Of a DNA stretch of 64,000 bases, positions 22,969 through 45,607 are shown piece after piece. The position numbers and the translations under genes are program-made. How positions within the stretch are numbered: the first letter of the stretch is position 1; each line of letters starts with the position of its first letter. Under the pieces are notes generated by a model. It was not told the origin of the DNA, searched no databases, and saw nothing but the letters and a program-made list of their open reading frames with translations. This DNA comes from Halomonas sp. (lineage in GTDB: Bacteria > Pseudomonadota > Gammaproteobacteria > Pseudomonadales > Halomonadaceae): the NCBI RefSeq assembly GCF_017983445.1, contig NZ_JAGOBJ010000003.1:124001-188000 (forward strand). Reading direction: 5' to 3'.

Positions 22969-22983
22969 GTTCGTTATGCGAAC
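22969..22983. promoter_or_regulatory. candidate IclR operator 1 (iclR promoter)
   Basis: GTTCGTTATGCGAAC has perfect 5-bp arms GTTCG/CGAAC with a five-base centre. It ends 64 bases upstream of the iclR ATG. The arms are the same as those before pcaI. Autoregulation is the simplest reading. Confidence 0.6.
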
Positions 22984-23120
22984 AATAGGCGGACGTTTTA
23001 GCTTTTTATATAGGGTTATCGGCACTACTTTGCGGACTGCTTTTGGTCAGGTACTACTAAAGTTGTGTTTTGTGTAGAGGTCAGAACGAAGTAGTCTCTT
23101 TGTATGTAGTGCGAATACAT

Positions 23121-23135
23121 GTACGTATCGCGAAC
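23121..23135. promoter_or_regulatory. candidate IclR operator 2 (tctC promoter)
   Basis: GTACGTATCGCGAAC fits GTWCG-N5-CGWAC. It ends 31 bases before the tctC ATG, where it would overlap or adjoin the promoter. It is less symmetrical than the others because one arm has A and the other pairs with T. Confidence 0.5.
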
Positions 23136-23166
23136 AAAAATTAAGTAATCATAGGAATTTAACATA

Positions 23167-24153
23167 ATGAAAAAAATTTTCAGCGCCACATGTATAGCTG
23201 CCTGCAGCGGTGCGTTACTACTTGCTGCTTCGATTTCAACCGCCAGTGCCGCCGAGTGGCCCACGGGTGATGTGCGTCTGGTCGTACCTTACGCGCCAGG
23301 TGGCACCACAGACGTGCTGTCACGCCGTGTCGCTGATTTGCTCAAGGACGCCTTGGACACCAACGTCATTGTCGAGAACCGTCCTGGTGCAGGCTCTACC
23401 ATTGGTACTGGCCGTCTGGCCCGCGGTGGGCGTGACGCTGATCATACGCTTTTAATGGCCTCACCGGGCCACACCATTGGTGCTGCAATTTACCCCGACC
23501 TTCCTTATGACCCGGTCGAAGATTTCGTCTTCATTCAAAATGTCATCGATATACCTAACGTGATGGTAGTGCCGGCAAGCAGCCCTTACCAAACGGTTGT
23601 GGAGTTTATTGAAGCCGCACAGGACCAGAACATGTCGTTCAGCCATAGCGGTGTAGGCAGCTCAATCCACATGTCCGGTGAGCTGTTTAAAACACTTACC
23701 GGATCACAGATGACTGCGGTTCCTTTTGCGGGTAGTGGCGCTGCTTTACCGGCCCTGTTAGGTGGTGATGTAGACGTTTCCTTTGAAAATATGCCAACGG
23801 TGTATTCACATATTAAGTCAGGTGCCTTGCGCGCCCTGGCCGTTACGTCTGCAGAGCGCTCGCCTTACCTGCCAGAAGTACCCACTCTGTCTGAAATCGG
23901 TGAGCACAATCTCGACCAGTTTATTACTACCGCCTGGTTTGGCTTGATTGCGCACGAATCCTTCCCCGAGGAAGGCTATGAAGCCATGCAGACAGCACTG
24001 GACGAAGTTATGCAACGCCAGGAGTTCCTCGACTTCGCAGAGCAGCTAGGTGCTCAACCAGGCCAGGTAGAAGGCGAAGAGTTTAAACAGTTTGTGATTG
24101 ATGACCTTGCACGTTGGGAAGAGGTCGCTCAGCAGGCGGGTATTAGTCAATAA
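23167..24153 (+). CDS. tripartite tricarboxylate transporter binding protein (TctC/Bug family)
   Basis: This 328-residue periplasmic protein has a signal peptide cut after TASA at about residue 28. The mature start, EWPTGDVRLVVPYAPGGTTDVLSRRVADLL, is the signature of Bug/TctC receptors, followed by ENRPGAGSTIGTGRLARG. Such proteins bind carboxylates (citrate, aromatic or dicarboxylic acids) and pass them to TctA/TctB. It is first in tctC-tctB-tctA-caiB, divergent from the IclR regulator and preceded by a candidate operator. A strong hairpin right after its stop probably sets its expression above that of the membrane subunits. Confidence 0.93.
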   Translation: MKKIFSATCIAACSGALLLAASISTASAAEWPTGDVRLVVPYAPGGTTDVLSRRVADLLKDALDTNVIVENRPGAGSTIGTGRLARGGRDADHTLLMASPGHTIGAAIYPDLPYDPVEDFVFIQNVIDIPNVMVVPASSPYQTVVEFIEAAQDQNMSFSHSGVGSSIHMSGELFKTLTGSQMTAVPFAGSGAALPALLGGDVDVSFENMPTVYSHIKSGALRALAVTSAERSPYLPEVPTLSEIGEHNLDQFITTAWFGLIAHESFPEEGYEAMQTALDEVMQRQEFLDFAEQLGAQPGQVEGEEFKQFVIDDLARWEEVAQQAGISQ

Positions 24154-24167
24154 CGACTAAATGAAAT

Positions 24168-24203
24168 AAGAAGGCGAGGGTTGTAACTAACCTTCGCCTT
24201 CTT
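24168..24203 (+). terminator. strong intra-operon hairpin between tctC and tctB
   Basis: AAGAAGGCGAGGGTT (24168-24182) pairs over 15 positions, with one G-T wobble, with AACCTTCGCCTTCTT (24189-24203). The loop is GTAACT and the tail is TTGCTTTC. It looks like a leaky terminator or mRNA-end stabiliser that would favour the receptor over the permeases. Confidence 0.7.
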
Positions 24204-24238
24204 TGCTTTCTTTAGCTTGTCCTCTTGGGGAGGCTGCC

Positions 24239-24739
24239 ATGTTATCTTCCGGTTTAAGCAACGTGAAACAAATTAAAGATACCTTAGATGTTATTACTGG
24301 GATCGTATTGTTACTGATCTCATTGGTATTGGCTTTCTATCTGGTGCCTAATTATATTGGGGAGCCATCTATATTACAAAACCCCATGATGTCACCTAGA
24401 TGGCTTCCCAATATCGTTAGTTGGCTTATATTAGTCTTTTCAGTTCTATTGATTATCCAAGGCGTTTTAGTCCCAAGCGATGCTGAAAATGACGAGCGAA
24501 AGATAATTAAAGGCCCTTACCGGCGCTTTATAATCATGCTTATAGCGTTTTTGGTTTACGTACTGTTGTTTGAGTCATTAGGCGCTATTTTAACCGGTAT
24601 ATTGGCAACGGTTCTTTTATTTTTGGCTCATCCAGTGCGCGTTTGGTGGGCTTATGGTTTTGCGCTTGCGTTTCCTGTTGGAGTAACGCTGTTATTTGTC
24701 AATGTGATGAATGTACCTCTTCCTTTGATGCCTTATTAA
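24239..24739 (+). CDS. tripartite tricarboxylate transporter small membrane subunit (TctB)
   Basis: The 166-residue protein has four hydrophobic segments (about 16-34, 50-72, 92-112 and 116-160 region) and ends ...FVNVMNVPLPLMPY, typical of TctB. It partners the large subunit TctA in Na+- or proton-driven carboxylate import. The ATG at 24239 follows GGGGAGG; an in-frame start at 24203 would fall in the hairpin. It is followed 33 bases later by tctA. Confidence 0.85.
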   Translation: MLSSGLSNVKQIKDTLDVITGIVLLLISLVLAFYLVPNYIGEPSILQNPMMSPRWLPNIVSWLILVFSVLLIIQGVLVPSDAENDERKIIKGPYRRFIIMLIAFLVYVLLFESLGAILTGILATVLLFLAHPVRVWWAYGFALAFPVGVTLLFVNVMNVPLPLMPY

Positions 24740-24772
24740 CTATTTATCGTCAGCGTGCAGCCTTGGTGACAT

Positions 24773-26260
24773 ATGGAAAACATTACTGAAGTTTTACAGC
24801 TATTTTTAAGTATCGATAACTTTATAGCGATCGCTTTAGGCGTCGTTATTGGTGTTACGGTAGGTTCAATACCCGGTCTTACAGCGACAATGGCGGTAGC
24901 GCTCGCGCTGCCGTTTACGTTCTCAATGCAGCCTGTGGCCGCTATTCTCCTGTTGGTAGGTATCTATAAAGGGGGAATGTATGGTGGTTCAATCACGGCG
25001 ATCCTGATACGCACCCCAGGCTCTCCTGCATCGGCATGTACGTTGCTGGATGGCTATCCTATGGCACAGCAAGGGAATGCTAAAAAAGCGTTGAAAGCAG
25101 CGCTTTTCTCATCCGTTATTGCCGATTTTATTTCCAATATTGCGCTGATATTTTTCGCCGCTTACCTGGCGAAAGTAGCCCTTAACTTTGGCGCGCCAGA
25201 ATTCTTCTGGTTAATCTGTTTCTCACTGACCATTATTATTTCTTTGGCAAGTGGCTCTATGATTAAAGGGCTCTTGGCGGCGCTGCTGGGAATTCTGCTA
25301 TCTCTGGTAGGTCTTGACTCGGTATTTGGTTCACAGCGTTTAACATTTGGTAATTATAATTTAATGGATTCAATTTCATTTATTCCATTACTGATTGGCC
25401 TGTTTGCCATACCTGAAATTATCGAGTTCTATAGAAAAAAAGCACTACCGCATATTAAAGCTAAAGCCAGCGGCGTGGGCATGACACTGTCCGAACTTAA
25501 GCGCTGCATGAAAAGTATTATCCGTGGAAGTTTAATCGGTGTCATCATTGGTGCTATTCCAGGTACCGGAGCAACCGCTGCAGCGTTCATTTCTTATGGT
25601 GATGCACGACGCCGCTCCCCGAATAAAGCCAATTTCGGGAAAGGAGAAGTTGAAGGTGTGGCTGCTGCTGAAGCCGGTAATAATGGCGTGGCAGGTGCAA
25701 CCCTGATACCGCTGCTTTCACTGGGTATCCCCGGGGATGTGATCACGGCGATTATTTTGGGCGCCTTTATGGTTCATGGCCTTACCCCTGGCCCCATCAT
25801 GTTCCAGGAAAACCTTTCGCTGATATACGCCCTCTTTTTGGGCATCATGTTCAGTTCCGTAATATTGTTGGTTGTCGGTAATGCAGCCATCAAGTATTTC
25901 TCAATAATCGCCGATATTCCCAAAGCGATTCTCTTCCCGATCGTACTGATGTTTTGTGTTTATGGCGCTTATGCTGTTAACAACATGATGTTTGATATAT
26001 GGCTGATGCTGGCATTTGGCGTAGTGGGCTATCTGTTTAATCGGACAGGTATTCCGGCAGCACCGTTTTTGATCGGCTTCATTCTCGGGCCGATGTTTGA
26101 AGACAACCTGAGACGCTCTCTTCTTATCAGCAATGGCGATATGTCGATCTTTTTCCGTGGGCCGATTACCTGGTTCTTTATTGCCATTACGTTTGGATCG
26201 ATTGCCTTTGCGATATACCGCTTTTTCAAGGATCGGAACGCAAAGCTGATAAGTAACTAA
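24773..26260 (+). CDS. tripartite tricarboxylate transporter large membrane subunit (TctA)
   Basis: The 495-residue protein has about twelve membrane segments. Two TctA signatures are present: GVTVGSIPGLTATMAVALALPFTF...GIYKGGMYGGSITAILIRTPGSPAS near the N-terminus, and the related inverted copy IGAIPGTGATAAAFISYGDARR...GVAAAEAGNNGVAGATLIPLLSLGIPGD in the middle. It forms the translocation path of the transporter. Typical relatives are 490-510 residues, so it is full length. A CoA-transferase gene follows 71 bases later, suggesting that the imported acid is activated as a CoA thioester. Confidence 0.94.
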   Translation: MENITEVLQLFLSIDNFIAIALGVVIGVTVGSIPGLTATMAVALALPFTFSMQPVAAILLLVGIYKGGMYGGSITAILIRTPGSPASACTLLDGYPMAQQGNAKKALKAALFSSVIADFISNIALIFFAAYLAKVALNFGAPEFFWLICFSLTIIISLASGSMIKGLLAALLGILLSLVGLDSVFGSQRLTFGNYNLMDSISFIPLLIGLFAIPEIIEFYRKKALPHIKAKASGVGMTLSELKRCMKSIIRGSLIGVIIGAIPGTGATAAAFISYGDARRRSPNKANFGKGEVEGVAAAEAGNNGVAGATLIPLLSLGIPGDVITAIILGAFMVHGLTPGPIMFQENLSLIYALFLGIMFSSVILLVVGNAAIKYFSIIADIPKAILFPIVLMFCVYGAYAVNNMMFDIWLMLAFGVVGYLFNRTGIPAAPFLIGFILGPMFEDNLRRSLLISNGDMSIFFRGPITWFFIAITFGSIAFAIYRFFKDRNAKLISN

Positions 26261-26331
26261 TGAAGCCTGAATTGTCTTGTAACGTAGACTAGCTTCGTTG
26301 ATAGCGGATTAATAATAAAGAGGAGTGTGTT

Positions 26332-27555
26332 ATGCCAGGGCCGTTAACGGGATTGCGTGTACTCGACTTAAGCCGGGTAATGGCTGGGCCCTGGTGTACG
26401 CAAATATTGGCAGATATGGGCGCCGAGGTTATCAAGGTCGAGCGCCCGATACTGGGCGATGATACGCGTCACTGGGGTCCTCCCTGGCTATGCGATAGCG
26501 CGGGGCGCTCTTCGGGTCAGTCCGCCTATTATCTATCTGCGAATCGTGGCAAACACTCCATCACAGTGGATATCAGCGTACCGGAAGGGCAGGCGCTCGT
26601 TCGGGAACTGGCGGCCGACAGTGATATATTGGTCGAAAACTTTAAAAGCGGCGGGCTGGCTGATAAGGGATTGGATTATCCTAGTCTTGAGGCTATTAAT
26701 CCTGCGCTGATTTACTGCTCCATCACTGGTTTCGGTCAGACAGGACCGATGGCGCATATGGCGGGCTACGATTATCTCATTCAGGCCCAGGCCGGCTTAA
26801 TGAGTATCACCGGTGTGCCTGATGGGGCGCCAGGCGCAGGCCCGCAACGAGTAGGTATGGCAGTCTCTGATTTGACGACGGGGATGAACGCAGTCATTGC
26901 TATTTTGGGCGCGCTGCATCATCGCCATCAAACCGGTGAGGGGCAGTACATCGACATGGCGCTGCTGGATGTACAGGTCAGCTGGCTTGCCAATCAGGCG
27001 CTCAACTATTTCTGTAGTGGTAACACCCCTAAGCGTACCGGTGAATATCATCCTAACCTGGTGCCTTACCAGCCCTTTCCAACCGCAGAAGGTGAGAAAG
27101 TCATCATCGCTATTGGCAATGACGGCCAGTTTCAACGCTTTTGCCAAGCAGTGGGTCAGCCTGAACTAGCGGCCGATGTGCGCTTTAGCACCAACCCGAT
27201 GCGGGTGAAGCATCGGTTAGAGCTTATTCCCCTGCTGGTGGCTATCACTCGGCAGCGTACCAGCCATGAATGGATCGCGTTACTGGCTGATATTGCAGTT
27301 CCCTGCGGTCCAATCCAGAGTATCGATCAGGTTTTCGAGGATCCTCAAGTTCAGGCGCGGGACATGCAAATCGAACAGGTATCTTCCTATGGCAAGGTGC
27401 CCGGCGTCGCTAACCCCATCAAATACTCAAAAACCAAGCTGGAGTACCGAAAAGCGCCGCCATTGTTAGGTGAAGATACCGTCGATGTATTAACCAACGT
27501 ATTGAATAAAACGCCTGAAGAAATAGAAACGTTACGTCTTCAACAAGCGATTTAA
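26332..27555 (+). CDS. CaiB/BaiF class III CoA-transferase
   Basis: The 407-residue enzyme opens LTGLRVLDLSRVMAGPWCTQILADMGAEVIKVERP, the classic family III start. The expected catalytic aspartate is D180 in VGMAVSDLTTGM. GEGQYIDMALLDVQVSWLANQALNY follows. These enzymes transfer CoA from one acyl-CoA (often succinyl-CoA) to a free acid in the cytoplasm. Position after tctCBA suggests it activates the imported substrate. A GAGGAG ribosome site precedes the ATG. The specific acid cannot be deduced; relatives act on carnitine, oxalate, mesaconate, itaconate and benzylsuccinate. Confidence 0.92.
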   Translation: MPGPLTGLRVLDLSRVMAGPWCTQILADMGAEVIKVERPILGDDTRHWGPPWLCDSAGRSSGQSAYYLSANRGKHSITVDISVPEGQALVRELAADSDILVENFKSGGLADKGLDYPSLEAINPALIYCSITGFGQTGPMAHMAGYDYLIQAQAGLMSITGVPDGAPGAGPQRVGMAVSDLTTGMNAVIAILGALHHRHQTGEGQYIDMALLDVQVSWLANQALNYFCSGNTPKRTGEYHPNLVPYQPFPTAEGEKVIIAIGNDGQFQRFCQAVGQPELAADVRFSTNPMRVKHRLELIPLLVAITRQRTSHEWIALLADIAVPCGPIQSIDQVFEDPQVQARDMQIEQVSSYGKVPGVANPIKYSKTKLEYRKAPPLLGEDTVDVLTNVLNKTPEEIETLRLQQAI

Positions 27556-27597
27556 TCAAGGGGCGTATGTGACTTAATCAAGGCTAGGCGGATGGCG

Positions 27598-28311
27598 TTA
27601 GCCTACCGTGACGCCGCCACATACAAAGAGCGTTTGTCCTGTAACAAAACTGCTGCGTGAGTCGCAAAAGAAGCTCACGGCGTTAGCCACGTCTTCAGGA
27701 GCCCCCATGCGCTGCAGCGGAATATTATCAATAATGCGTTTGGCCCGTTCAGAGTCTGGCGGGTTGTTATCCCAGAAGGCCGTGGTCGCAATAGGCCCAG
27801 GCGCTACACAGTTGACCGTAATGCTATCCTGGGCAAGTTCTAACGCCCAGGTTCTGGCCATCGACTGCACCGCTCCCTTAGTGGCACTGTAGAGCGTTCG
27901 CGCTTCCTTACCCAAGACCACTCGGCTTGCATTGAATACGATACGTCCATTCTTGCTGGCCCGCAGGCTTGGTAATAGTGCCTGGGTGCATATCAATGCC
28001 GGGCGCACGTTAAGATGCATCAAGCGGTCAAAATCTTCAAGGCGGGCATCATCGAGCAAGGCAGGTGCCACAATACCCACATTGTTTACCAGACAGCTGA
28101 TAGCATATTTTTCATTTATTGAGTCCAATACTGCTTTTAACGCTTCTATATCTGATAGATCAACTTGATAAGCATCTTCTTTAAGCGAAGCTATCGTAGG
28201 CTCTACGATATCAAGAACGATAACACGGTAGCCGTCCTGTTGAAGACGCTCAGAGATGGCCTGCCCAATATTACGAGCGCCTCCGGTTACCACCGCGCAC
28301 GGCATAGACAT
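27598..28311 (-). CDS. short-chain dehydrogenase/reductase (SDR)
   Basis: The 237-residue classical SDR has the nucleotide-binding start VVTGGARNIGQAISERL, the LVNNVGIV motif, an active site with YSATKGAVQSMARTWALELA (catalytic Tyr-x-x-x-Lys), and CVAPGPIATTAF. It oxidises or reduces a hydroxyl/keto group with NAD(P). It is last in the minus-strand run atoE-yciI-catC-SDR. The catalytic serine of 'NASRVV' is in the expected place. Its substrate is presumably an intermediate of the module, but that is inference only. Confidence 0.9.
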   Translation of the reverse strand: MSMPCAVVTGGARNIGQAISERLQQDGYRVIVLDIVEPTIASLKEDAYQVDLSDIEALKAVLDSINEKYAISCLVNNVGIVAPALLDDARLEDFDRLMHLNVRPALICTQALLPSLRASKNGRIVFNASRVVLGKEARTLYSATKGAVQSMARTWALELAQDSITVNCVAPGPIATTAFWDNNPPDSERAKRIIDNIPLQRMGAPEDVANAVSFFCDSRSSFVTGQTLFVCGGVTVG

Positions 28312-28372
28312 ATGGGGTTTCCTTTAAAATAAAAGTTTGAATATGTAACGCTTACCAAAAGTTTTCGCTTAA

Positions 28373-28663
28373 TCAACTATCATCATCACGAACAGAAGAA
28401 GGGTGGCGGCAAAGAGGCTTTACACTTATTTCCATGTAAGGAAAGAGAGGAAGATTGGCGATAATATCTTGTAGCTCTGCGTTATCAGCGACATCAAAGA
28501 TACTGATATTGGCGTAGCTGCCCGCTATTCTCCATAAATGGCGCCACTTTCCCTGCTGCTGCAAGGCCTGTGAATAGGCCTTCTCTTTTGCCTTGATCTC
28601 TGATGCCACTTCGTCTGGCATATCTGTTGGCAGCTTGACAGTCATCTCAACGTGAAAAAGCAT
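28373..28663 (-). CDS. catC: muconolactone delta-isomerase
   Basis: The 96-residue protein is very close to Pseudomonas CatC along its whole length. It begins MLFHVEMTVKLPTDMP, continues IKAKEKAYSQALQQQGKWRHLWRI and YANISIFDV, and ends LPLFPYM...LCRHPSS. CatC converts muconolactone to 3-oxoadipate enol-lactone, the meeting point of the catechol and protocatechuate branches. It lies in atoE-yciI-catC-SDR with no catA or catB in the window. That makes it an orphan CatC, and its lactone may come from somewhere other than catechol, or catA/catB may be elsewhere in the genome. Confidence 0.93.
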   Translation of the reverse strand: MLFHVEMTVKLPTDMPDEVASEIKAKEKAYSQALQQQGKWRHLWRIAGSYANISIFDVADNAELQDIIANLPLFPYMEISVKPLCRHPSSVRDDDS

Positions 28664-28714
28664 TGTTATCTCTTCTTTTAACTAGTGATTACTGTATTTA
28701 AAAATAAGACGCGT

Positions 28715-29011
28715 TCAGAGAAGACATTGCTTGTCTAAATAAGCCTTCCGCCAGCGAACAATTTTAATGTCTTCAAACAGGTCTGCTATATAGAACGGGT
28801 CATGACGAATAAATGCCTCAGCCTCGTCTCTTGTCTCAAGATCGACTAGATAAAGCCCTCCTGAGGCGGTACTCGCATCGTCAGAAAGCTTGGCCCCACA
28901 GGCAAGTAGCAGAGCACTGTGAGCCTTTAGATAGGCAAGATGTTCATCACGTATTTCAAGCCGTAAAGTGTGGTGTCCTGGCTTATCAAACGTTTCGATC
29001 ATGAATGGCAT
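28715..29011 (-). CDS. YciI-like protein
   Basis: The 98-residue protein has the YCII domain pattern: R.EIRDEHLAYLKAHSALLLACGAKLSDD, GGLYLVDLETRDEAEAFIRHDPFYIADLFEDIKIVRW. The fold is the same ferredoxin-like alpha-beta dimer as muconolactone isomerase, and a few YciI members act on ring or lactone intermediates. It lies directly before catC (51 bases) and after atoE. No certain function; an isomerase, dehalogenase or lyase step on a lactone is a guess. GGGGGA stands as ribosome site. Confidence 0.82.
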   Translation of the reverse strand: MPFMIETFDKPGHHTLRLEIRDEHLAYLKAHSALLLACGAKLSDDASTASGGLYLVDLETRDEAEAFIRHDPFYIADLFEDIKIVRWRKAYLDKQCLL

Positions 29012-29045
29012 GGCAAATCCCCCTTAGTGGTCGAGGTGGGCTGGC

Positions 29046-30380
29046 TTACGCGGCCATATAGCCCCAGATCCAAATGGCAGTGCCGTATATAACGCCCAGA
29101 TACCCGAGTATCAGCACCATATAGCCCATGACATCGCGTAATTTAAGCCCTGAAATAGCCAGTACGGGTAGGATCCAGAACGGTTGAACCATATTGGTCC
29201 ACTGGTCACCCACCTGCACTGCCAGTGCGGTTGCTGCATGTGAAGCGCCTAATGCGGTAGCTGCTTCTATCATGACGGGGCCTTGTACTGCCCATTGCCC
29301 ACCGCCGGAAGGAGCGAGTAGATTGATCACTGCTCCGCTCAGGAAAGACCAGATGGGTAGTGTCTTCGCACTCGAGATATCCACGAAAATATTGGCAAAG
29401 CTCACCATCAGACCAGAGCCGACCAGGATGCCCATGATGCCAGCATAGAAGGGATATTGGACAATAATGCCTGATACGATACGAATGCCGTCATTAAGCG
29501 CTGCCAAATAATTGGCTGGGGAAGCAAAAAGTAAGATACCCAGAAATAAAAACGCAAAATTCACAGTGTTAAGGTTGAGTGACCCGCCGTCCATCGCATA
29601 AAGGGCTATATAAAGCATGCCCAATAAGCCAATTCCAATACCCACAATACGGCTGTGATTAAGTTTATCCGCAAGCGTCATTTCTTTATGATCAGGTTTG
29701 CTGGGTACGCTTGACTTAATCACTGACTCAGGGTTTATCTCAATAATTTCGCTAGGGTTTTTGGGATGTAGCCAGGCATTAAAAAACGGCAGCGTACAGA
29801 TGATAATCGCGCTAGTAATCAATAAAACTGGTGAAAAAATAGTCTCTGATAAGGGAATCAGCCCCATTTCATCCTGTAGAAAGTGACCTTCTGTTGCGAT
29901 TAAAAGTGGAACGCTGCCTGAAAGACCAATTCCATAAAGGGCAAAGCCTGAATAAGCGGCGGCAATCACCAATGGATAGTGTAAGCCTTTGACATTAACG
30001 GCCAGCTTCTGAGCAACGATGCCGCCAATAACTAACCCAAAACCCCAGTTAAGCCAACTACCGATTGCACCAACCAGGGTCGCTACCACAATCGCCATAA
30101 AAGGCGTTTTAACTCGGCTGGCAATTCGGTCCAGAGAACTATCGATTAAAGGGGTTTTAGCCAAAATATAACCAGCCAATAGAATGACGGTCATTTGCAT
30201 GCTGAAAGCAAGCAGACTCCAGAAGCCGTCACCCCAATAACGTGTCGCCTCAAACGGAGACGTACCCTCTACAGCAATAGCCAGTACAACCGTTAATCCT
30301 GTCAGCAGGATGGCGATAACCAAGGGGTCCGGCATATAGCGATTGATCAGCCGGGTGAAAAAATTAGCCATACCGTGCAT
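29046..30380 (-). CDS. atoE: short-chain fatty acid transporter, AtoE family
   Basis: The 444-residue membrane protein of the AtoE family has about a dozen hydrophobic stretches. Family features are FFTRLINRYMPDPLVIAILLT at the start, AIGSWLNWGFGLVIGGIVA, and NLLAPSGGGQWAVQGPVMIEAA with QVGDQWTNMVQPFWILPVLA near the end. AtoE proteins carry acetoacetate and other short-chain acids. It is the first gene of the minus-strand unit, with GGAG seven bases ahead of its ATG. A candidate IclR operator stands 36 bases upstream. Confidence 0.92.
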   Translation of the reverse strand: MHGMANFFTRLINRYMPDPLVIAILLTGLTVVLAIAVEGTSPFEATRYWGDGFWSLLAFSMQMTVILLAGYILAKTPLIDSSLDRIASRVKTPFMAIVVATLVGAIGSWLNWGFGLVIGGIVAQKLAVNVKGLHYPLVIAAAYSGFALYGIGLSGSVPLLIATEGHFLQDEMGLIPLSETIFSPVLLITSAIIICTLPFFNAWLHPKNPSEIIEINPESVIKSSVPSKPDHKEMTLADKLNHSRIVGIGIGLLGMLYIALYAMDGGSLNLNTVNFAFLFLGILLFASPANYLAALNDGIRIVSGIIVQYPFYAGIMGILVGSGLMVSFANIFVDISSAKTLPIWSFLSGAVINLLAPSGGGQWAVQGPVMIEAATALGASHAATALAVQVGDQWTNMVQPFWILPVLAISGLKLRDVMGYMVLILGYLGVIYGTAIWIWGYMAA

Positions 30381-30416
30381 GGCAGTTCTCCAGGAGTTAA
30401 GGTATTTTTAAAAAGT

Positions 30417-30431
30417 GTACGCATTGCGTAC
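30417..30431. promoter_or_regulatory. candidate IclR operator 3 (atoE / HAD divergent promoter)
   Basis: GTACGCATTGCGTAC is a 15-bp palindrome with six-base arms and fits GTWCG-N5-CGWAC. It lies between the divergent atoE (36 bases away) and 3-hydroxyacyl-CoA dehydrogenase (162 bases away) genes, so one site could serve both directions. Confidence 0.6.
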
Positions 30432-30593
30432 TTATGTTCGATTTTGGGGTTTGATGATTGTCCTTATCCCAAGGCATCACAATTCGACGATGGTCGCACG
30501 GCGAAAAACAGCGTCTCACTCACTTTGCTGTGCAAAGAGGCTGCTCTATGAGGCAGCGCATAGCTCAGAAACAATTAACAAGAGGTCAAAGAT

Positions 30594-31517
30594 ATGGCTC
30601 ATAACGTTGGGCGGGTGGTTATTGTGGGCGCGGGCACTATGGGCACAACACTCGCCAAACTCGTGTCCAGCAAGCAGTGGCCAGTACGTATCATCGATAC
30701 TAACCCGGCGGTGTTAGAGCGGTGCCGTACGCAATTAATCGCAGCTTTAGACCCTGAAGTTATGGCTGGCAATCATCTGGATTTTCAATCTCAGTGGGTA
30801 GCGGATGAAAGCGTTACGATCGTCATTGAGAGCGTGACCGAGAACCTTGAAATCAAGCAGTTGGTGCTTGCTCAAGCTGAAGCGCACTGCGGTAAAGACA
30901 CATTAATCGTGACTAACACGTCGGGTCTTTCGATTGATGAGATCGGTCAGAAAATGCAGTATCCCGAACGGTTAGCCGGGGCACACTTCTTCAATCCAGC
31001 GGACCTGATTCCAACGGTCGAGGTGGTGTCGGGTGCCGCTACGCTAGAGAGTACAGTGGAGCGCACATGCCAATTTTTAACGCAGCTTGGCAAGCGCCCC
31101 GCCGTTATTCAAAAGGCCGTGCCGGGGTTTGTCGCCAACCGGATTCAGCATGCCATCATGCGCGAGTGTCTTTCGTTGTTAGAAAAAGGTGTCGTCAATA
31201 TAGAGGCGCTGGATGATATCGTGCAGTTTTCGATTGGCGTACGTCTAGCGCTTAACGGGCCTTTACTACAGCGTGATCTTAACGGCTTGGATACGCATCT
31301 CAATATTGCGCGCTATTTATATAGCGATCTGGAAGATACTCACTTGCCCTCTGCATTGCTTGAAAGCTACGTGGAAAAAGGCTGGCTAGGGGCTAAAGCA
31401 GGAAAGGGTTTTTACGCCTGGAGTGATGAGCAAGTAACGCAGCGCGCAGCAAACGAGGGTAAAAGATTAAGCCAGATTATCGATATAGCGCTTGATAATG
31501 ACAAGGAGCCCAACTGA
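30594..31517 (+). CDS. 3-hydroxyacyl-CoA dehydrogenase family protein
   Basis: The 307-residue enzyme starts VVIVGAGTMGTTLAKLVSSKQWPVRIID (NAD site). The catalytic elements TNTSGLSIDEI and AHFFNPADLIPTVEVVSG (catalytic His of HFFNP) follow, then PAVIQKAVPGFVANRIQHA at the domain junction, and VEKGWLGAKAGKGFYAW at the end. It oxidises an L-3-hydroxyacyl-CoA to the 3-oxoacyl-CoA; carnitine 3-dehydrogenases share this layout. The stop overlaps the ATG of the cyclase gene. A reading frame beginning at 30415 in another phase is not real. In this setting 3-hydroxyadipyl-CoA to 3-oxoadipyl-CoA is an attractive but untested reaction. Confidence 0.88.
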   Translation: MAHNVGRVVIVGAGTMGTTLAKLVSSKQWPVRIIDTNPAVLERCRTQLIAALDPEVMAGNHLDFQSQWVADESVTIVIESVTENLEIKQLVLAQAEAHCGKDTLIVTNTSGLSIDEIGQKMQYPERLAGAHFFNPADLIPTVEVVSGAATLESTVERTCQFLTQLGKRPAVIQKAVPGFVANRIQHAIMRECLSLLEKGVVNIEALDDIVQFSIGVRLALNGPLLQRDLNGLDTHLNIARYLYSDLEDTHLPSALLESYVEKGWLGAKAGKGFYAWSDEQVTQRAANEGKRLSQIIDIALDNDKEPN

Positions 31518-32557
31518 TGGCCACGAAGAGTAATCATCCCCGCTGGGAAAAACGCCCCCAAGGCTCAAATTGGGGTGAGTTTGGGCCTGATGATCAACTG
31601 GGAAGAGTCAATCTGCTTCAGGCGGAGCAAGTGCTAAAAGGGGTCAAGGAGGTAACGGCCGGGCGAACCTTTTGCCTTTCGCTTCCGCTTAATCTGCCTG
31701 GCGGTAATGCGCTTAACCCGCGTCGCTATCCGCCCCGGCTTGCGCCAACGCAGCTTAAAAAAGACCACTACATCAATTTTCCTTTGGCCACCCATCACCC
31801 AGGCTTGCTTGATGTCATCAGTGACGATGAGGTGGTGTTATCACTGCAGTACTCTTCCCAATGGGATTCGCTTGCGCATGTCGGCGCCTTGTTTGATGCC
31901 GATAATGACGGCCATGCCGAACGGTGTTACTACAACGGCTATCAGGCAGAACGCGATATACAGCGTTTGGATAGCTCTGATGCTCATTCCTGCGCTTCTC
32001 ATGCTGCTCGTTTGGGTATCGAGAACATGGCCGTACACGGCATGCAGGGGCGAGGAGTATTAGTGGATTTGACGCGGGTGTTTGGTCACAAGCGCACCAT
32101 CGTCGGGTATGTCGAATTAATGCATGCGTTAAGCGAGCTGGACGTCAGTATCGAGGTTGGAGACATGCTCGTTCTGCGTACCGGATTTGCAGAAGCCATC
32201 CTGCAAATGGATGGCTCCCCTGATCTTGAGCAGTTAAAGCAAACCGGGGCCGTGCTCGACGGGACGGATGAAATGCTGCTGCAGTGGATTAGCGATAGCG
32301 GTATTTCGGCCATCTGCGCCGATAACTATGCGGTCGAAAACGCCGATCGAGAATTAACGCCTACTGATTGCTGTAAATTACCCCTGCATCATCATTGTCT
32401 TTTTAAGCTTGGGTTACCCCTTGCAGAGCTTTGGTATTTAAAGCCTCTGGCCGACTGGCTGCATGCCAATCAGCGCTCACGTTTTTTGCTAACCGCACCG
32501 CCGCTTCGCCTACCCGGCGCGATTGGATCGCCCGTGACACCTGTTGCAACGGTCTAA
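31517..32557 (+). CDS. cyclase-family metal-dependent hydrolase
   Basis: The 346-residue protein belongs to the putative-cyclase/kynurenine formamidase superfamily in its longer form. SSQWDSLAHVGALF carries the expected metal-ligand aspartate and histidine. Later come the conserved GRGVLVDL, VGDMLVLRTG, and ISAICADNYAVEN elements. Members open amides or lactones (N-formylkynurenine, isatin, cyclic intermediates). The start overlaps the dehydrogenase stop by one base with AAGGAG upstream. Given catC and yciI across the promoter, a lactone substrate is conceivable. The exact reaction is unknown. Confidence 0.85.
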   Translation: MATKSNHPRWEKRPQGSNWGEFGPDDQLGRVNLLQAEQVLKGVKEVTAGRTFCLSLPLNLPGGNALNPRRYPPRLAPTQLKKDHYINFPLATHHPGLLDVISDDEVVLSLQYSSQWDSLAHVGALFDADNDGHAERCYYNGYQAERDIQRLDSSDAHSCASHAARLGIENMAVHGMQGRGVLVDLTRVFGHKRTIVGYVELMHALSELDVSIEVGDMLVLRTGFAEAILQMDGSPDLEQLKQTGAVLDGTDEMLLQWISDSGISAICADNYAVENADRELTPTDCCKLPLHHHCLFKLGLPLAELWYLKPLADWLHANQRSRFLLTAPPLRLPGAIGSPVTPVATV

Positions 32558-32591
32558 GTCAATATCAACCGTATAAACTTAGCGCTCAGGC

Positions 32592-32612
32592 AAAACGCCG
32601 TTAGCGGGTTTT
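32592..32612. terminator. terminator hairpin between convergent genes
   Basis: AAAACGCCG and CGGGTTTT pair around TTAG with one bulged G. A-tracts and T-tracts flank it on both sides, so it can act for the cyclase (+) and for aroE (-). Confidence 0.5.
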
Positions 32613-32648
32613 AAACGGTGATGGTTTTAATGCATTAATACCCAAACG

Positions 32649-35428: not shown

Positions 35429-35456
35429 GGCATTACGCTCCTTGCATTCAGTAAAA

Positions 35457-36722
35457 TCAGTAGCCAAACAGGCGCGGCAGGAAGGTGACCAGCGTAGGTA
35501 CAAACGTGATCAGCAGCAGAACCAGGAACTGTACGCCGAGCATCGGCAGAATGCGGCGGATAATCGGGCCCATCCCCACGCCGGACACCGAGTCAGCGAC
35601 AAACAGGCAAAGCCCCATGGGCGGCGTGATCAGGCCCATCATCAGGTTGAATATCACCACAATGCCAAAGTGCAGTGGGTCAATCCCCAGTGCCATGGCG
35701 ATAGGGTGCAGAATGGGTACCAGCACCAGAATGGCTGCAATTCCTTCCAGAAACAGTCCTACTACCAGCAGTAGGAGAATGACGGCAATCAGAAAGGTCC
35801 ACTGGGTATCGATACTCATTAGTGCCCATTCGGTGAGCATGTTGGGAATACGATTGAACGTCAGTACCCAGTTAGCCGCTGCAACGGCACCCATAATGAC
35901 CATGATGACCGCGCTATCGCGCATGGCGCGGGCAAAGATGCCGGGCAGGTTGACCAGCTTGATATTGCGGTAGAGCACCACGCCAAGAATCAGCGCATAC
36001 ACCACGGCAAAGGCGGCAGCTTCCGTCGGTGTCACGATACCTGCGAGAATGGCCCCGACCACAAAGACCGGCATAAGCGCGGGCAAAAGGCCATGCAGAA
36101 GTGCGTGACGGCGCGACTGCTTCCTGGACTGCGTGGCACCCAGGTCGCCGGCAAAAAAGTAGACATAGATGGAAAGCCCCAGCGCCAGCAAAAAGCCCGG
36201 CACAATACCAGCCAAGAAGAGCCCTGGCACCGATACGCCTGACACTGTGAGCGCGTAGATGATAACGGGAATACTTGGCGGGATAATCGGACCAATGACA
36301 GATGAGGCCGCTGTAAGCGCAGCAGCAAAATCGCGTGGATAGCCCTCTTTTTCCATTGAGGGGATAAATACTCGACCAAGGGCGGAAGTATCGGCAATTG
36401 CTGAACCAGAGAGGCCTGCAAAGATCACCGAGGCCCATATATTGACGTGTGCAAGTCCTGCTTTAAGACGGCCGACGATGGCCGTGGCCAGGTTAATGAT
36501 TCGGTGCGTGATACCCGCTTCGTTCATCAGCTCGCCCGCCAGAATGAACAGCGGTATTGCCAGCAGTGGGAAGGACTCCATACCGCCAAAAAACTGCTGT
36601 GACACAATGCGGATGTGGTAGGGCAGGTCGCCGGTGCTCATCAGTACCGTGAGAGTACCCAAAATGGCAAAGGCAAACGGTACGCCCAGCAGTATGAGTG
36701 CTACAAGCAGAATAAAAATCAT
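35457..36722 (-). CDS. dctM: TRAP transporter large permease (DctM)
   Basis: The 421-residue membrane protein has around twelve hydrophobic segments. It opens with MIFILLVALILLGVPFAFAILGT, and the GLSGSAIADTSALGRVFIPSMEKEGYPRDFAAALTAASSVIGPIIPPSIPVIIYA block is diagnostic of DctM. It provides sodium-driven transport with DctQ and DctP. The start overlaps dctQ by four bases. quiC follows 28 bases later, so the transporter and dehydroshikimate dehydratase are one operon, and shikimate, quinate or dehydroshikimate is the likely cargo. Confidence 0.94.
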   Translation of the reverse strand: MIFILLVALILLGVPFAFAILGTLTVLMSTGDLPYHIRIVSQQFFGGMESFPLLAIPLFILAGELMNEAGITHRIINLATAIVGRLKAGLAHVNIWASVIFAGLSGSAIADTSALGRVFIPSMEKEGYPRDFAAALTAASSVIGPIIPPSIPVIIYALTVSGVSVPGLFLAGIVPGFLLALGLSIYVYFFAGDLGATQSRKQSRRHALLHGLLPALMPVFVVGAILAGIVTPTEAAAFAVVYALILGVVLYRNIKLVNLPGIFARAMRDSAVIMVIMGAVAAANWVLTFNRIPNMLTEWALMSIDTQWTFLIAVILLLLVVGLFLEGIAAILVLVPILHPIAMALGIDPLHFGIVVIFNLMMGLITPPMGLCLFVADSVSGVGMGPIIRRILPMLGVQFLVLLLITFVPTLVTFLPRLFGY

Positions 36723-37216
36723 GGTGATGGCTCCTCACCAGAACGGTCATTCAACCGCAGTGCGCCCATTACCAGTGCTGAAAGGCTAAGCAGGCCGCCG
36801 CCCATCAGCATGGATGTTTGAAAGACCCACATCGGTATCCCGGTGCTTGATGAGGTGCGGTTACCGCGTGCGGCGATAAATTCAACGGCTGATATCATCA
36901 AGCCAACGCCGACGGCTAACACTACTAGGTCAATAGCAACTGCCTGCCAACGCAGCCAGCGTGGAGGCAATAAGCGACGAATAAGGTCAAAGCCGATGTG
37001 TTTGTCCTGCAGATACGCCCACGCCATGCCAAACATCAAGCCGTAAATCATCAGATAGATGGCGGTATCTTCTCCCCAGCTAATGGAGCCGCCATAGGTA
37101 TAGCGCGCAAAGGCATTGCCCGCGACCAATAGAAGAATCAACACCATGGCAAGGCCTGCCAAGCTGCCATTGAACAGGATCAGACCGCGGTGTAACCGGG
37201 CGAGAAGATGAGACAT
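36719..37216 (-). CDS. dctQ: TRAP transporter small permease (DctQ)
   Basis: The 165-residue protein has four membrane helices (about 13-35, 49-66, 85-105 and 127-148), with the GEDTAIYLMIYGLMFGMAWAYLQDKHIGFDLI motif typical of DctQ. The ATG at 37216 is preferred because GAAGG stands ahead; a GTG at 37246 is possible. It overlaps dctM and stands between the binding-protein gene and the large permease, the common TRAP order. Confidence 0.88.
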   Translation of the reverse strand: MSHLLARLHRGLILFNGSLAGLAMVLILLLVAGNAFARYTYGGSISWGEDTAIYLMIYGLMFGMAWAYLQDKHIGFDLIRRLLPPRWLRWQAVAIDLVVLAVGVGLMISAVEFIAARGNRTSSSTGIPMWVFQTSMLMGGGLLSLSALVMGALRLNDRSGEEPSP

Positions 37217-37308
37217 TAGAGCACCTTCAATCGTTTTGTCAGGCACGCAGGACTATGAATGGGCCTTCTTATAAGACCCATTCACAAAACGTTTTCGATC
37301 AAGCAGGT

Positions 37309-38415
37309 TTAAAAGCGCTGTGACGCTTCATCGACGGCAGATGTTAAACGTTCAATCCACTCTGCATCATCGCCAAGCTCGTCGCGCAGATATGCCTGAA
37401 CCGGCGGTTGCGCCGCTTCTCGGAATGCTTCCATCTGCTCGGCGGTGGGCTGAGTAACTTCCATGCCCGCGGCTTCCAGCTTGGCAATACCTTCTGCGGA
37501 ATTGAACTGCTGAATGGCGCGGCCAGTGGTGCCCGCGACGATAGCGGCGCGCTTCACGGCGGCCTGCTCTTCCTCGTTGAGCGACTGGAAGATGTCATCG
37601 TTGATCAGCAGGTGATCAACGCCATACACGTGGCCATCCAGCGTCAGGTAATCCTGAAACTCGTAGAAGTTGTTGCCAAAAATTACCGAAATGGGGTTTT
37701 CTTGACCGTCTACTACGCCGGTTGCCAGGGCTGTCGGTACTTCACCCCAGCTAATGCCCTGTGGCTCGGCGCCCAGGCCGCGCATCATTTCGATATAAAG
37801 CGGGATAGTTTGTACGCGGAACTTCAAGCCTTTCATGTCTTCCGGCGAGCTGATGGTGCGCACAGAGTTGGTGAAGTGGCGAAAGCCCGTCTCGCCGTAA
37901 GCCAGCGTGCGCAGACCCGTCTGCTCCAGACAGTGCTCAGCAAGCGCAGTGCCGAATTCACCGTCCATCACCTGCCATGCTACTGGTGCCGATGGGAAGG
38001 TATAAGGAATATCCGTCACGGCAACGGCCGGGCAGAAGTTGGCGTAGGAGCCGGAGACCATGGCGATACTGATGGTGCCATCCTGCGCGCCTTCAATCAG
38101 CTCGGTTTCACCACCCAACGAGCCCGCAGGGTATAGCTCCACTTTAAGATCGGTTTCTGCTTCCACCAGGTTCTTGAACACCTGACCGGCCGAACCTTTT
38201 TTCGACGTGGTCCAGTCATCCGGGTCAACGTGGGCAAAGCGTAGTGTCTGGGCATAGGTATTGGCGGCAGCCATTAGCGTGGTAGTGGCAATGGCAGCTA
38301 TCAGGGCCCGCTTCATAAACGGTTGGCTAAATGAAAAGGTAGTCTTTAAAGACTTATGTTTTAAAGACCTAGTTTTTAAAGACTGAGTTTTTAAAAACCT
38401 AGTTTCTAGAGACAT
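37309..38415 (-). CDS. dctP: TRAP substrate-binding protein (DctP) with repeat-encoded N-terminal extension
   Basis: This TRAP receptor (368 residues if the ATG at 38415 is used) has a normal signal peptide beginning MKRALIAAIATTTLMAAANTYA at residue 34. TLRFAHVDPDDWTTSKKGSAGQVFKNL, GLKFRVQTIPLYIEMMRGLGAEP and TGVVDGQENPISVIF follow. The first 25 codons are five 5-residue repeats (consensus K/R-S-L-K-T) encoded by a 15-bp palindromic repeat. The ATG at 38415 has AAGGA nine bases ahead, whereas the inner ATG at 38316 has no ribosome site, so the extension may be translated. The cargo is probably shikimate-like. Confidence 0.85.
   Translation of the reverse strand: MSLETRFLKTQSLKTRSLKHKSLKTTFSFSQPFMKRALIAAIATTTLMAAANTYAQTLRFAHVDPDDWTTSKKGSAGQVFKNLVEAETDLKVELYPAGSLGGETELIEGAQDGTISIAMVSGSYANFCPAVAVTDIPYTFPSAPVAWQVMDGEFGTALAEHCLEQTGLRTLAYGETGFRHFTNSVRTISSPEDMKGLKFRVQTIPLYIEMMRGLGAEPQGISWGEVPTALATGVVDGQENPISVIFGNNFYEFQDYLTLDGHVYGVDHLLINDDIFQSLNEEEQAAVKRAAIVAGTTGRAIQQFNSAEGIAKLEAAGMEVTQPTAEQMEAFREAAQPPVQAYLRDELGDDAEWIERLTSAVDEASQRF
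38341..38415. repeat. five-copy 15-bp palindromic tandem repeat at the start of dctP
   Basis: Five exact 15-base units cover 38341-38415. On the plus strand the first unit contains AGTCTTTAAAGACT, a perfect palindrome, and the others are variants centred on TTTAAA (the last on CTAG). The array is in frame with the minus-strand gene, and the last unit ends in the start codon. Each unit encodes (K/R/Q)-S/F-L-K-T. It could be a hypervariable coding tract, an operator cluster, or both. Confidence 0.95.
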
Positions 38416-38495
38416 TGTTATTATCCTTTAGCAGGGTTATTGGCATTAGGTTTAAAACCGTAAGCAATGGCGTGTTTTATCCTGTCTCAATTAAC

Positions 38496-38515
38496 AATGT
38501 ACGAAATGGTACGTT
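38496..38515. promoter_or_regulatory. candidate TetR operator in the dctP / tetR divergent promoter
   Basis: AATGTACGAAATGGTACGTT has arms AA(T/C)GTAC and GTAC(G/A)TT around six bases, giving an almost perfect 20-base palindrome. It lies 55 bases upstream of the tetR ATG and 80 bases upstream of the dctP start. Operators of this layout are typical of TetR-family proteins. Confidence 0.6.
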
Positions 38516-38570
38516 CAGTCAAGGTATGCCATGCTAGACCAAAGACGGTCACATAATAAAAGGTTAACTA

Positions 38571-39248
38571 ATGGCACCCACTTCCAAAATGCCTCTTCCT
38601 GCCTCTAAACAAAGCCGACGCAAGAACGATCCTGAACTGGTTCAAGCCGATATTCTTGCGGTCGCCACGCGTGAGTTTTCCGAAAAAGGTCTTTCGGGGG
38701 CACGGATCGATGAGATCGCTGATAAAACACGCGCGTCTAAACGAATGATCTATTACTACTTTCACGATAAAGAAACGCTTTACTTGCACACTCTGGAGGC
38801 GGCCTATCAAAAAGTGCGCCTGCAGGAGGCGGAGCTGGATCTAGATCACTTCGCCCCGCTAGAGGCACTTAGCCGACTGGTGCGGTTTACCTTTAACCAC
38901 CATGCTAAAAACCCTGACTTCATTCGCCTGGTAATGATCGAAAATATTCATCATGGCCGTTATCTGGCCCAATCAGCGTTGATTCAATCGCTGAACGCCG
39001 GGGTAATTGATGTTCTCACTAACGTGTATGCCCGCGGGGTGGCAGATGGCTGCTTTCGTACAGGCTTGGACCCACGGGAGTTGCATTGGCTGATTAGCGC
39101 ACTGTCGTTTTTTAATGTCTCAAACCAGCACACCTTTTCGAGAATTTTCGATTGGCAGCAGGCCGCGCCGGAAAATCAGCATAGGTTAGAAGAGCACGTC
39201 ACTGAAATGGTGCTGCGTTACGTGCGAACAGATGAGGCAGCGTGTTAA
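38571..39248 (+). CDS. TetR-family transcriptional regulator
   Basis: The 225-residue regulator has an N-terminal TetR helix-turn-helix at about 25-70 (ILAVATREFSEKGLSGARIDEIADKTRASKRMIYYYFHDKETLYLHTLE). The C-terminal ligand domain is like those of TetR proteins near quinate/shikimate operons (FTFNHHAKNPDFIRLVMIENIHHGRYL). It is divergent from dctPQM-quiC-aroE, with a palindrome between, and therefore likely represses that operon until shikimate or a derivative is present. pcaB follows 61 bases later in the same direction. Confidence 0.9.
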   Translation: MAPTSKMPLPASKQSRRKNDPELVQADILAVATREFSEKGLSGARIDEIADKTRASKRMIYYYFHDKETLYLHTLEAAYQKVRLQEAELDLDHFAPLEALSRLVRFTFNHHAKNPDFIRLVMIENIHHGRYLAQSALIQSLNAGVIDVLTNVYARGVADGCFRTGLDPRELHWLISALSFFNVSNQHTFSRIFDWQQAAPENQHRLEEHVTEMVLRYVRTDEAAC

Positions 39249-39309
39249 GCATCAACGTTAGCTAATGGGATTATTTTTTCTGAACCTGTTATTGGGAGAT
39301 CTGTAGCTC

Positions 39310-40638
39310 ATGCCTAGCGCGTTCTTAAAACATCCGTTTATGAGTCAGCAAGCACTCAGTGAGTGCAATGACGAGGCCATGGTGCGCGCCATGCTGGCGT
39401 TTGAATTAGCTCTGGCAGAAGTCCAGGAAGCCAGTGGCGCCGTACCACAAGGCGCAAGCCAGCAGATGCGTGCCCAGCTTGAGCACGTAACGTTCGATAC
39501 CGCAGCGATTGCAGAAGGAATTGCCAGCGGCGGCAATGCAGCCATTCCGTTTGTTAAGCAGGGGCGCTCGCTGTTACCCGATGAGCTCAAGCGCTACTGG
39601 CACCAGGGTGCGACCAGCCAGGATGTCATCGACTCTGCGCTAATGCTGCTGCTAACGCCACGCTTGCGTGCACTGAATGATTTGTTAGTACGCTGCCGCG
39701 AGGCATCGCTGACGCTAATGGATGCTCACATCGCCACTCCGATGGTGGGGCGCACGCTAATGCAGCAGGCGCTGCCCATCACCTTTGGTGTCAAGGTTGC
39801 CCACTGGGCGATAGGACTTGAGCAAAGTCGTCGGCGCTTGGCGGCTATCGAATTACCCGTTCAGTTTGGCGGCGCGGTGGGTGTCCACTCAGGGTGGGAT
39901 GCCCAAGGGCTTGAGTGGATGGATGCGTTAGCGAAGCGGCTTGGCTTGGCCACATCGGTTTTACCCTGGCATACCGACCGCTACCCAATTCATAGCCTGG
40001 GCACAGCGTTAGACGCCATTGCCGGGGCCGCCGAGAAAGTAGCCCAGGACGTTGCCCTGCTCACGCAAACCGAAGTAGGCGAAGTGGCCGAGCCTTCGGC
40101 ACCTGGAATGGGGGAGTCGTCCTCCATGCCCCATAAGCGTAACCCAGTGCGTAGTGCGCTTATTCGCGGGGCGGCCAGGCAGGTGCATGGTCACACCAGT
40201 GTGTTATTGAACGCTGCCGCACAGCCACTTGAGCGGGGCTTGGGCGAGTGGCATGCCGAATGGGCGCCGTTAATGGAAAGCGCTTTGTTGGTGGAAGGTG
40301 CGCTGGAGCAGATGGCGGTACTTCTTGAAGGGCTTGAGGTATATCCCGATAACATGGAGCGCAACCTGGCGGCCACAGGCGGCGGTATCATGGCCGAGCC
40401 GGTAGCGCGACTGTTAGCCCCTCATTTGGGCGCCGAAGACGCCAAAGCGTTAAGTGCACAGGCCGCCGAGATATCAAGGCGAGATAAGCGGCCTTACGCC
40501 GATGTGCTGGCCGACCATGCCAAGGTAAAAGACCAGATTGACCCGATTACGTTAAGAAAAACATGTGACCCTGCTTTATACCTTGGTAGCAGCCAGCAGC
40601 AAGTGTTGCGCGCCAAACGCTGGCTTATTAATGCGTAA
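39310..40638 (+). CDS. pcaB: 3-carboxy-cis,cis-muconate cycloisomerase
   Basis: The 442-residue member of the fumarase/aspartase superfamily has the signature GESSSMPHKRNPV (superfamily GSSxMPxKxN) and WHQGATSQDVIDSALMLL. It converts 3-carboxymuconate to 4-carboxymuconolactone, step two of protocatechuate ring-fission catabolism. It stands by itself after the TetR gene and about 190 bases ahead of pcaI. That gap carries the IclR-type palindrome, so pcaB is probably a separate transcript from pcaIJF-DC-HG. Confidence 0.94.
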   Translation: MPSAFLKHPFMSQQALSECNDEAMVRAMLAFELALAEVQEASGAVPQGASQQMRAQLEHVTFDTAAIAEGIASGGNAAIPFVKQGRSLLPDELKRYWHQGATSQDVIDSALMLLLTPRLRALNDLLVRCREASLTLMDAHIATPMVGRTLMQQALPITFGVKVAHWAIGLEQSRRRLAAIELPVQFGGAVGVHSGWDAQGLEWMDALAKRLGLATSVLPWHTDRYPIHSLGTALDAIAGAAEKVAQDVALLTQTEVGEVAEPSAPGMGESSSMPHKRNPVRSALIRGAARQVHGHTSVLLNAAAQPLERGLGEWHAEWAPLMESALLVEGALEQMAVLLEGLEVYPDNMERNLAATGGGIMAEPVARLLAPHLGAEDAKALSAQAAEISRRDKRPYADVLADHAKVKDQIDPITLRKTCDPALYLGSSQQQVLRAKRWLINA

Positions 40639-40767
40639 CTTCATGAAATAAATTAATTTTTTAACTTTATCGTTAAGCATGATAGCAATTGACTGGGAAA
40701 TTTCATCGCCTTTAGCCATTTGACCCATTTAGCATTCGGCAGTAATTTGTTCGTATTGCAAATCAAT

Positions 40768-40782
40768 GTTCGTTTAACGAAC
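40768..40782. promoter_or_regulatory. candidate IclR operator 4 (pcaI promoter)
   Basis: GTTCGTTTAACGAAC is palindromic over all but its central base (seven-base arms). It has the same arms as the site before iclR and ends 45 bases upstream of the pcaI ATG. A degenerate half-site GTTCG lies at 40749-40753. PcaR of Pseudomonas is known to bind a related 15-bp sequence at pcaIJ. Confidence 0.7.
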
Positions 40783-42434: not shown

Positions 42435-42444
42435 GGAGTCGGTC

Positions 42445-43647: not shown

Positions 43648-43657
43648 CGGAGGTAGT

Positions 43658-44827: not shown

Positions 44828-44873
44828 GCGCATGAACAGCCAGCATGACAATAACAAATGAGAGGAGAGGGTG

Positions 44874-45596: not shown

Positions 45597-45607
45597 GGCG
45601 GGGATTG

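Follow-up and report, generated by a model that had tools for sequence, protein, structure and literature searches.

Four copies of the 15-bp palindrome GTWCG-N5-CGWAC in a 64,000-nucleotide stretch of a Halomonas sp. genome (contig NZ_JAGOBJ010000003.1, positions 124,001–188,000; hereafter the window) are, in all probability, operators of the IclR-family regulator PcaR. As predicted binding sites, they would place a tctCBA–coenzyme A (CoA)-transferase operon, a divergent atoE/dehydrogenase–cyclase pair and the pca operon of the β-ketoadipate pathway under one regulator. The sites, their conservation, their third boxes, the family of the regulator and its linkage to the pca genes are read from the DNA itself.

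Results

Four intergenic palindromes lie at catabolic promoters

A rescan of the window returned exactly four matches to GTWCG-N5-CGWAC, at the positions of the original prediction (operators O1–O4, Table 1). The prediction had put chance occurrence at about 0.24 sites, and 100 dinucleotide shuffles gave a mean of 0.23, with a maximum of 2 and none reaching four. The Poisson probability of at least four sites in 64 kb is 9.7e-5 at 0.23 and falls to 7e-6 when the site density of the remaining genome is used. All four are intergenic and, as had been claimed, within promoter distance: O2, O3 and O4 are 31, 36 and 45 bases from the start codons of tctC, atoE and pcaI, respectively, while O1 is 64 bases from the regulator start at ATG 22904 (40 if TTG 22928 is the start). 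O3 is also 162 bases from the divergent gene at 30594, originally called HAD, which is more precisely a 3-hydroxyacyl-CoA dehydrogenase family gene.

The whole genome (3.90 Mb) contains 11 exact places, a total not above chance (the reversed pattern gives 25). The scan for non-promoter copies, proposed beforehand as a check, found no further intergenic exact copy: the seven outside the window all fall within mechanically called open reading frames (ORFs) of at least 297 aa, and the intergenic exact copies are the window's four. The relaxed pattern GTNCG-N5-CGNAC occurs at 31 places, comprising the four window sites, the seven other exact copies and 20 relaxed-only places. The latter yielded no accepted regulon member: 17 are inside ORFs of at least 190 aa and two are inside ORFs of 110–128 aa only. 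Just one relaxed site beyond the window is clearly intergenic, GTTCGGTAAGCGCAC (L201 1501–1515), ~40 bp before putP, and it is probably a chance match.

Table 1 Coordinates of operators, genes and conserved blocks (window positions unless a relative's stretch is named).
Feature	Position	Strand	Basis and remarks
pcaR (IclR family, TIGR02431)	22125–22904	−	293.7 bits; start set at ATG 22904, listed ORF from TTG 22928
O1, two-box palindrome at pcaR promoter	22969–22983	.	exact match, kept in relatives
Second conserved block TACTAAAGTTGTGTTTT, pcaR–tctC gap	23055–23071	+	alignment; not a PcaR box
O2 at tctC	23112–23135	+	palindrome 23121–23135; degenerate third box CGAAT 23112–23116, overlapped by GTGCG 23109–23113
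tctC, tripartite tricarboxylate transporter (TTT) solute-binding protein	23167–24153	+	PF03401; best solved match AdpC (5oei)
tctB	24203–24739	+	PF07331
tctA	24773–26260	+	PF01970
CaiB/BaiF-type CoA-transferase	26332–27555	+	nearest NCBIfam model succinate--glutarate CoA-transferase, 485 bits vs cut-off 750
atoE-like short-chain fatty acid transporter	29046–30380	−	PF02667; TIGR00366 below cut-off
O3, atoE/dehydrogenase divergent promoter	30417–30440	−	palindrome 30417–30431; third box 30436–30440 (CGAAC, atoE strand)
3-hydroxyacyl-CoA dehydrogenase family protein	30594–31517	+	model match
Putative cyclase	31517–32557	+	PF04199; only solved relative 5ibz, uncharacterised
O4 at pcaI	40749–40782	+	palindrome 40768–40782; upstream direct half-site GTTCG 40749–40753
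pcaI, pcaJ, pcaF, pcaDC fusion, pcaH, pcaG	40828–46255	+	model matches and neighbourhood
Extra PcaR-type sites in six relatives	L122 6749; L126 5428; L127 6690; L131 6703; L140 6683; L143 12661		

The regulator is PcaR

The sequence identifies the IclR protein encoded beside O1 as the PcaR of this genome. It combines an IclR helix-turn-helix domain (PF09339) with a ligand-binding domain (PF01614), and its score of 293.7 bits against TIGR02431 (PcaR/PcaU/PobR) passes the cut-off of 284.75. Five IclR-type loci in the genome match this model, of which it alone exceeds the cut-off, the other four reaching 77 to 169 bits. In an alignment with Pseudomonas putida PcaR (8eju), mapped by eye, the five succinate contacts named in PMC12455658, Y151, T177, S240, N257 and S259, correspond to Y128, T154, S217, N234 and S236 in the window protein, and all five are identical. 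Because a P. stutzeri homologue is reported to lack these residues (PMC12455658), the dicarboxylate contacts are not strictly defining for PcaR. The model score, the contact residues and the pca gene neighbourhood bear out the PcaR/PcaU type first proposed for this protein. The start of pcaR is most likely ATG 22904, since the alignments with most relatives begin only at residue 7–9 of the listed ORF.

The regulator is closely linked to the pca genes. Among 82 genomes of the genus, counted with partial matches included and with no correction for phylogeny, 58 hold both the orthologue and pcaI, two the regulator only (G061 and G008), one pcaI only and 21 neither; in the pcaI-only genome (G021) the contig ends ~370 bases past the gene. 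In G052, G037, G038, G048, G068 and on contig 17 of G006 the regulator gene (iclR in the comparisons below) and pcaI are immediate divergent neighbours that flank a site. A search of 293 genomes of the order found 17 that match the regulator at E <= 1e-75, 13 of them outside the genus. Each of these 13 orthologues adjoins a pcaB, pcaI or pcaHG homologue, and the pca cluster is therefore the usual neighbour of the regulator; in eight of the 13 the gap also contains a relaxed site. The regulator is separated from the pca cluster by transport and catabolic modules in the window lineage, and the tctC and atoE modules are located between the two in many genomes.

The sites are conserved in relatives

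Conservation was assessed in 78 stretches from 57 genomes of the same genus that hold or connect the regulator, pcaI or the dehydrogenase gene; G008, G031 and G074, with partial regulator matches, were left out. Genes were labelled by similarity to the window proteins, and relaxed sites were counted in a region reaching from 300 bp before each gene to 15 bp into it, dropping genes that lacked the N-terminus or fell below identity thresholds. Such a site precedes iclR in 57/58 genes (55 genomes), tctC in 29/31, atoE in 13/13, the dehydrogenase gene in 14/15, pcaI in 52/56 (55 genomes) and pcaB in 32 of 36 relatives. This conservation, which the original prediction had set as a check, gives counts of 57, 28, 5, 5, 51 and 32, respectively, with the strict pattern. 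Neither this comparison nor the genome scan for stray copies refuted the prediction. For tctC, 28 of the 31 genes have their own tctC-proximal site. The one iclR gene that lacks an upstream site is a second copy in G027 (68% identical; L169 2052–2846); in the 5 kb retrieved there, no gene received a pca label.

Control upstream regions gave no relaxed site for trapP (0/19) and tetR (0/24), which share one gap (0/43 together), nor for quiC (0/25), aroE (0/23), tctB (0/31) and pcaJ (0/56). The sdr control had one site in 29, beside pcaB, and the 10 sites found at 46 aroQ genes are every one next to iclR. In an alignment of 25 iclR–tctC gaps the half-sites are 98–100% identical to the window while the other columns average 52%; those of O1 are identical in all 25 and those of O2 reach 98%. 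Moreover, tctC lies away from iclR in seven loci, and the site upstream of tctC is kept in five of these (G029, G046, G054, G066 and G077).

Six relatives have a further PcaR-type site in a second tctC-like/second quiC-like intergenic region on the same stretch as iclR (Table 1). This suggests that in these relatives the regulon gained a dehydroshikimate module.

A third half-site marks the structural promoters

A conserved third half-site accompanies the palindrome at the structural promoters and not at the iclR promoter, which is new here. At atoE, CGNAC is found 9 bp upstream of the palindrome, exact in 14/14 (these counts include the window), and at pcaI, GTNCG forms a direct repeat 19 bp upstream, exact in 49/53. 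The tctC box is a degenerate CGAAT at the 9-bp position (mean 4.0 of 5 letters), overlapped by a GTGCG-like box at −12 that averages 4.1. At pcaB the box has the mirrored position, with a mean of 4.4 of 5 letters and an exact match in 12/32. No third box was found at iclR, where the best position averages 2.8 of 5 letters.

The motif class itself is known. GTNCG-N5-6-CGNAC has been published as the motif common to PcaR, PcaU, PobR, CatR and others, and the operators of PcaU, PobR and HmgR are described as a palindrome accompanied by an external half-site (PMC8222616). The window operators at structural promoters share this architecture, so that a palindrome with an external half-site is not a new class. 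Unlike in the PcaU/PobR/HmgR account, the third box here is found at structural promoters only and in two geometries: everted, 9 bp upstream, at tctC, atoE and (mirrored) pcaB, or, at pcaI, in direct orientation 19 bp upstream.

The P. putida PcaR operator is GTTCGATAATCGCAC (PMC12455658). The P. putida and window PcaR proteins have in common the family model, the ligand-contact residues, the 15-bp operator form and, as predicted for the window protein, control of pcaIJ. They differ in the right half-site, CGWAC in the window and CGCAC in P. putida, and in that the window has sites at the TTT transporter/CoA-transferase operon and at the atoE/dehydrogenase/cyclase pair.

Genes of the predicted regulon

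Within the pca operon, pcaF, pcaH and pcaG score above their model cut-offs and the pcaDC fusion reaches 379 against 390, while pcaI and pcaJ give weak matches below cut-off (40 and 44 bits) and are named from their neighbourhood. The dehydrogenase, the marker of the atoE–dehydrogenase–cyclase set, is present in only 17/82 genus genomes; neither it nor the PF04199 protein has a solved relative that tells its substrate.

Among solved structures, the window TctC is closest to AdpC (5oei, E 2.2e-49), a TTT protein of Rhodopseudomonas palustris that binds adipate (PMC8556258, PMC5812351). Bug27 scores almost as well (1.1e-48) and terephthalate-binding proteins come next (~1e-43), so that the solved relatives do not single out one ligand for TctC. 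P. putida PcaR is reported to respond to adipate, glutarate, succinate and others (PMC12543098, PMC12455658). A module that takes up and activates a dicarboxylate and is induced together with the β-ketoadipate pathway would fit. A role of the tctC module in aromatic-acid uptake would fit too. We take COG3181 to be TctC and COG3333 to be TctA. Both COGs are tied to aromatic metabolism in IclR regulogs, and the window resembles these in that its TTT transporter genes are associated with an IclR-type regulator of aromatic catabolism (PMC8222616).

Other conserved intergenic blocks

The pcaR–tctC gap contains a second conserved block, TACTAAAGTTGTGTTTT, whose 8-base core ACTAAAGT (23056–23063) is invariant in the 25 aligned sequences; no second exact copy of TACTAAAGTTGTGTTTT was found in the genome. 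The block resembles the ACTU motif examples given for the LuxR-type response regulator CrbR/ErdR in PMC5715377, and a second input to the pcaR–tctC promoter through it is possible. Another candidate for the most conserved block of the gap, TTGGTCAGGTACTACTAA, was rejected in favour of TACTAAAGTTGTGTTTT; with at most three mismatches it occurs in just 2 of the 78 stretches.

A further conserved block surrounds TGTACGAAATGGTACGTTCA at 38493–38516, in the divergent trapP/tetR gap. There, 20-base stretches starting at 38493–38497 have a mean identity of 95–96%, as against 60% overall (25 aligned sequences), and the block is likely the operator of the TetR protein encoded at 38571. If so, the operon for a tripartite ATP-independent periplasmic (TRAP) transporter, quiC and aroE (shikimate/quinate) would be controlled apart from PcaR. 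The interval 39249–39310 carries no PcaR-type site for pcaB in the window, and pcaB may be read from tetR or escape direct PcaR control.

Weighing the alternatives

The original prediction held that an unassigned catabolic module is tied to the β-ketoadipate genes. Judged by the identity of PcaR and the conserved sites, this tie, which extends to both the atoE and the tctC modules, likely reflects real regulation. Several observations weigh against PcaR control. A tctC gene lying away from iclR is without a site in G003 and on contig 17 of G006 (in the latter it lies after dehydrogenase and cyclase genes, which have one), and G028 has only the iclR-proximal site. Sites are also missing at pcaI in G003, G039, G020 and G021 and at the dehydrogenase gene in G003, from the gap of five out-of-genus orthologues (52–56% identity) and, in the window, at pcaB, where relatives mostly have one. 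The sites at tctC and atoE are mostly GTACG and those at iclR and pcaI GTTCG. The relatives are not independent, and their loci were selected because they contain these genes. Finally, a hexamer scan found no sigma-70-like promoter near the sites on the relevant strand, so that the position of the sites does not reveal activation.

The difference in the third letter could arise if tctC and atoE answered to another IclR-type regulator with the same motif, leaving PcaR at iclR and pcaI only. The motif is indeed common to many IclR proteins (PMC8222616), and five loci of this genome match TIGR02431. The other four, however, score far below the cut-off, no relaxed site was found in the 3.2–3.7 kb stretches around them (L013–L017), and many genomes carry the two modules between pcaR and the pca genes; we consider a second regulator improbable. 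Even less credit can be given to chance palindromes kept through shared descent. The relatives do have common ancestry and the genome total of the exact motif is not above chance, but the half-sites stand out from the rest of the same iclR–tctC gap, the site persists at five of the seven tctC loci away from iclR, and all seven exact copies elsewhere in the genome fall in ORFs. Nor does it seem any more probable that the palindromes work as RNA hairpins, that is, terminators or attenuators. Terminator-like stems of 5–7 pairs were flagged on those at iclR, atoE/dehydrogenase and pcaI, but their loops and stems are as in any such palindrome, their T tracts are weak, and half-sites outside the stem are also conserved, as protein binding would predict.

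Discussion

On the preferred reading, that the four palindromes are PcaR operators, PcaR would bind the two-box palindrome at its own promoter, probably limiting its own synthesis, and three-box operators at tctCBA–CoA-transferase, at the divergent atoE/dehydrogenase–cyclase promoter and at pcaIJF-DC-HG. On binding β-ketoadipate or a related dicarboxylate, PcaR would turn on all these operons at once, and acid uptake and CoA activation would thereby be co-induced with the lower β-ketoadipate pathway. We infer the binding, the inducer, activation in place of mere derepression and what the two additional modules act on. From the operator architecture, the structural promoters would be activated and the regulator's own promoter repressed.

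A joint reading, which we offer tentatively and think somewhat doubtful, is that in this genus PcaR has grown from a regulator of protocatechuate genes into one that also governs a route for scavenging dicarboxylates. TctCBA would import β-ketoadipate, adipate or a similar acid, the CoA-transferase would activate it, and the atoE/dehydrogenase/cyclase-like genes would make up a side branch, as yet undescribed, that connects with the pca pathway. If this were true, the number of boxes would tell two kinds of promoter apart, with three at the activated structural promoters and two at the repressed promoter of the regulator.

Halomonas is not mentioned in the main text of PMC8222616. Within the literature searches made, Halomonas pcaR/IclR control of protocatechuate genes returned only a Paenarthrobacter paper, and the match for pcaR with a tripartite tricarboxylate regulon concerns protocatechuate uptake in Vibrio natriegens. 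The finding involves no new mechanism and is a well-supported extension of a known regulon type. For comparative work it would provide a clean example of operons being added to a PcaR regulon, in which operator geometry may predict the activated promoters.

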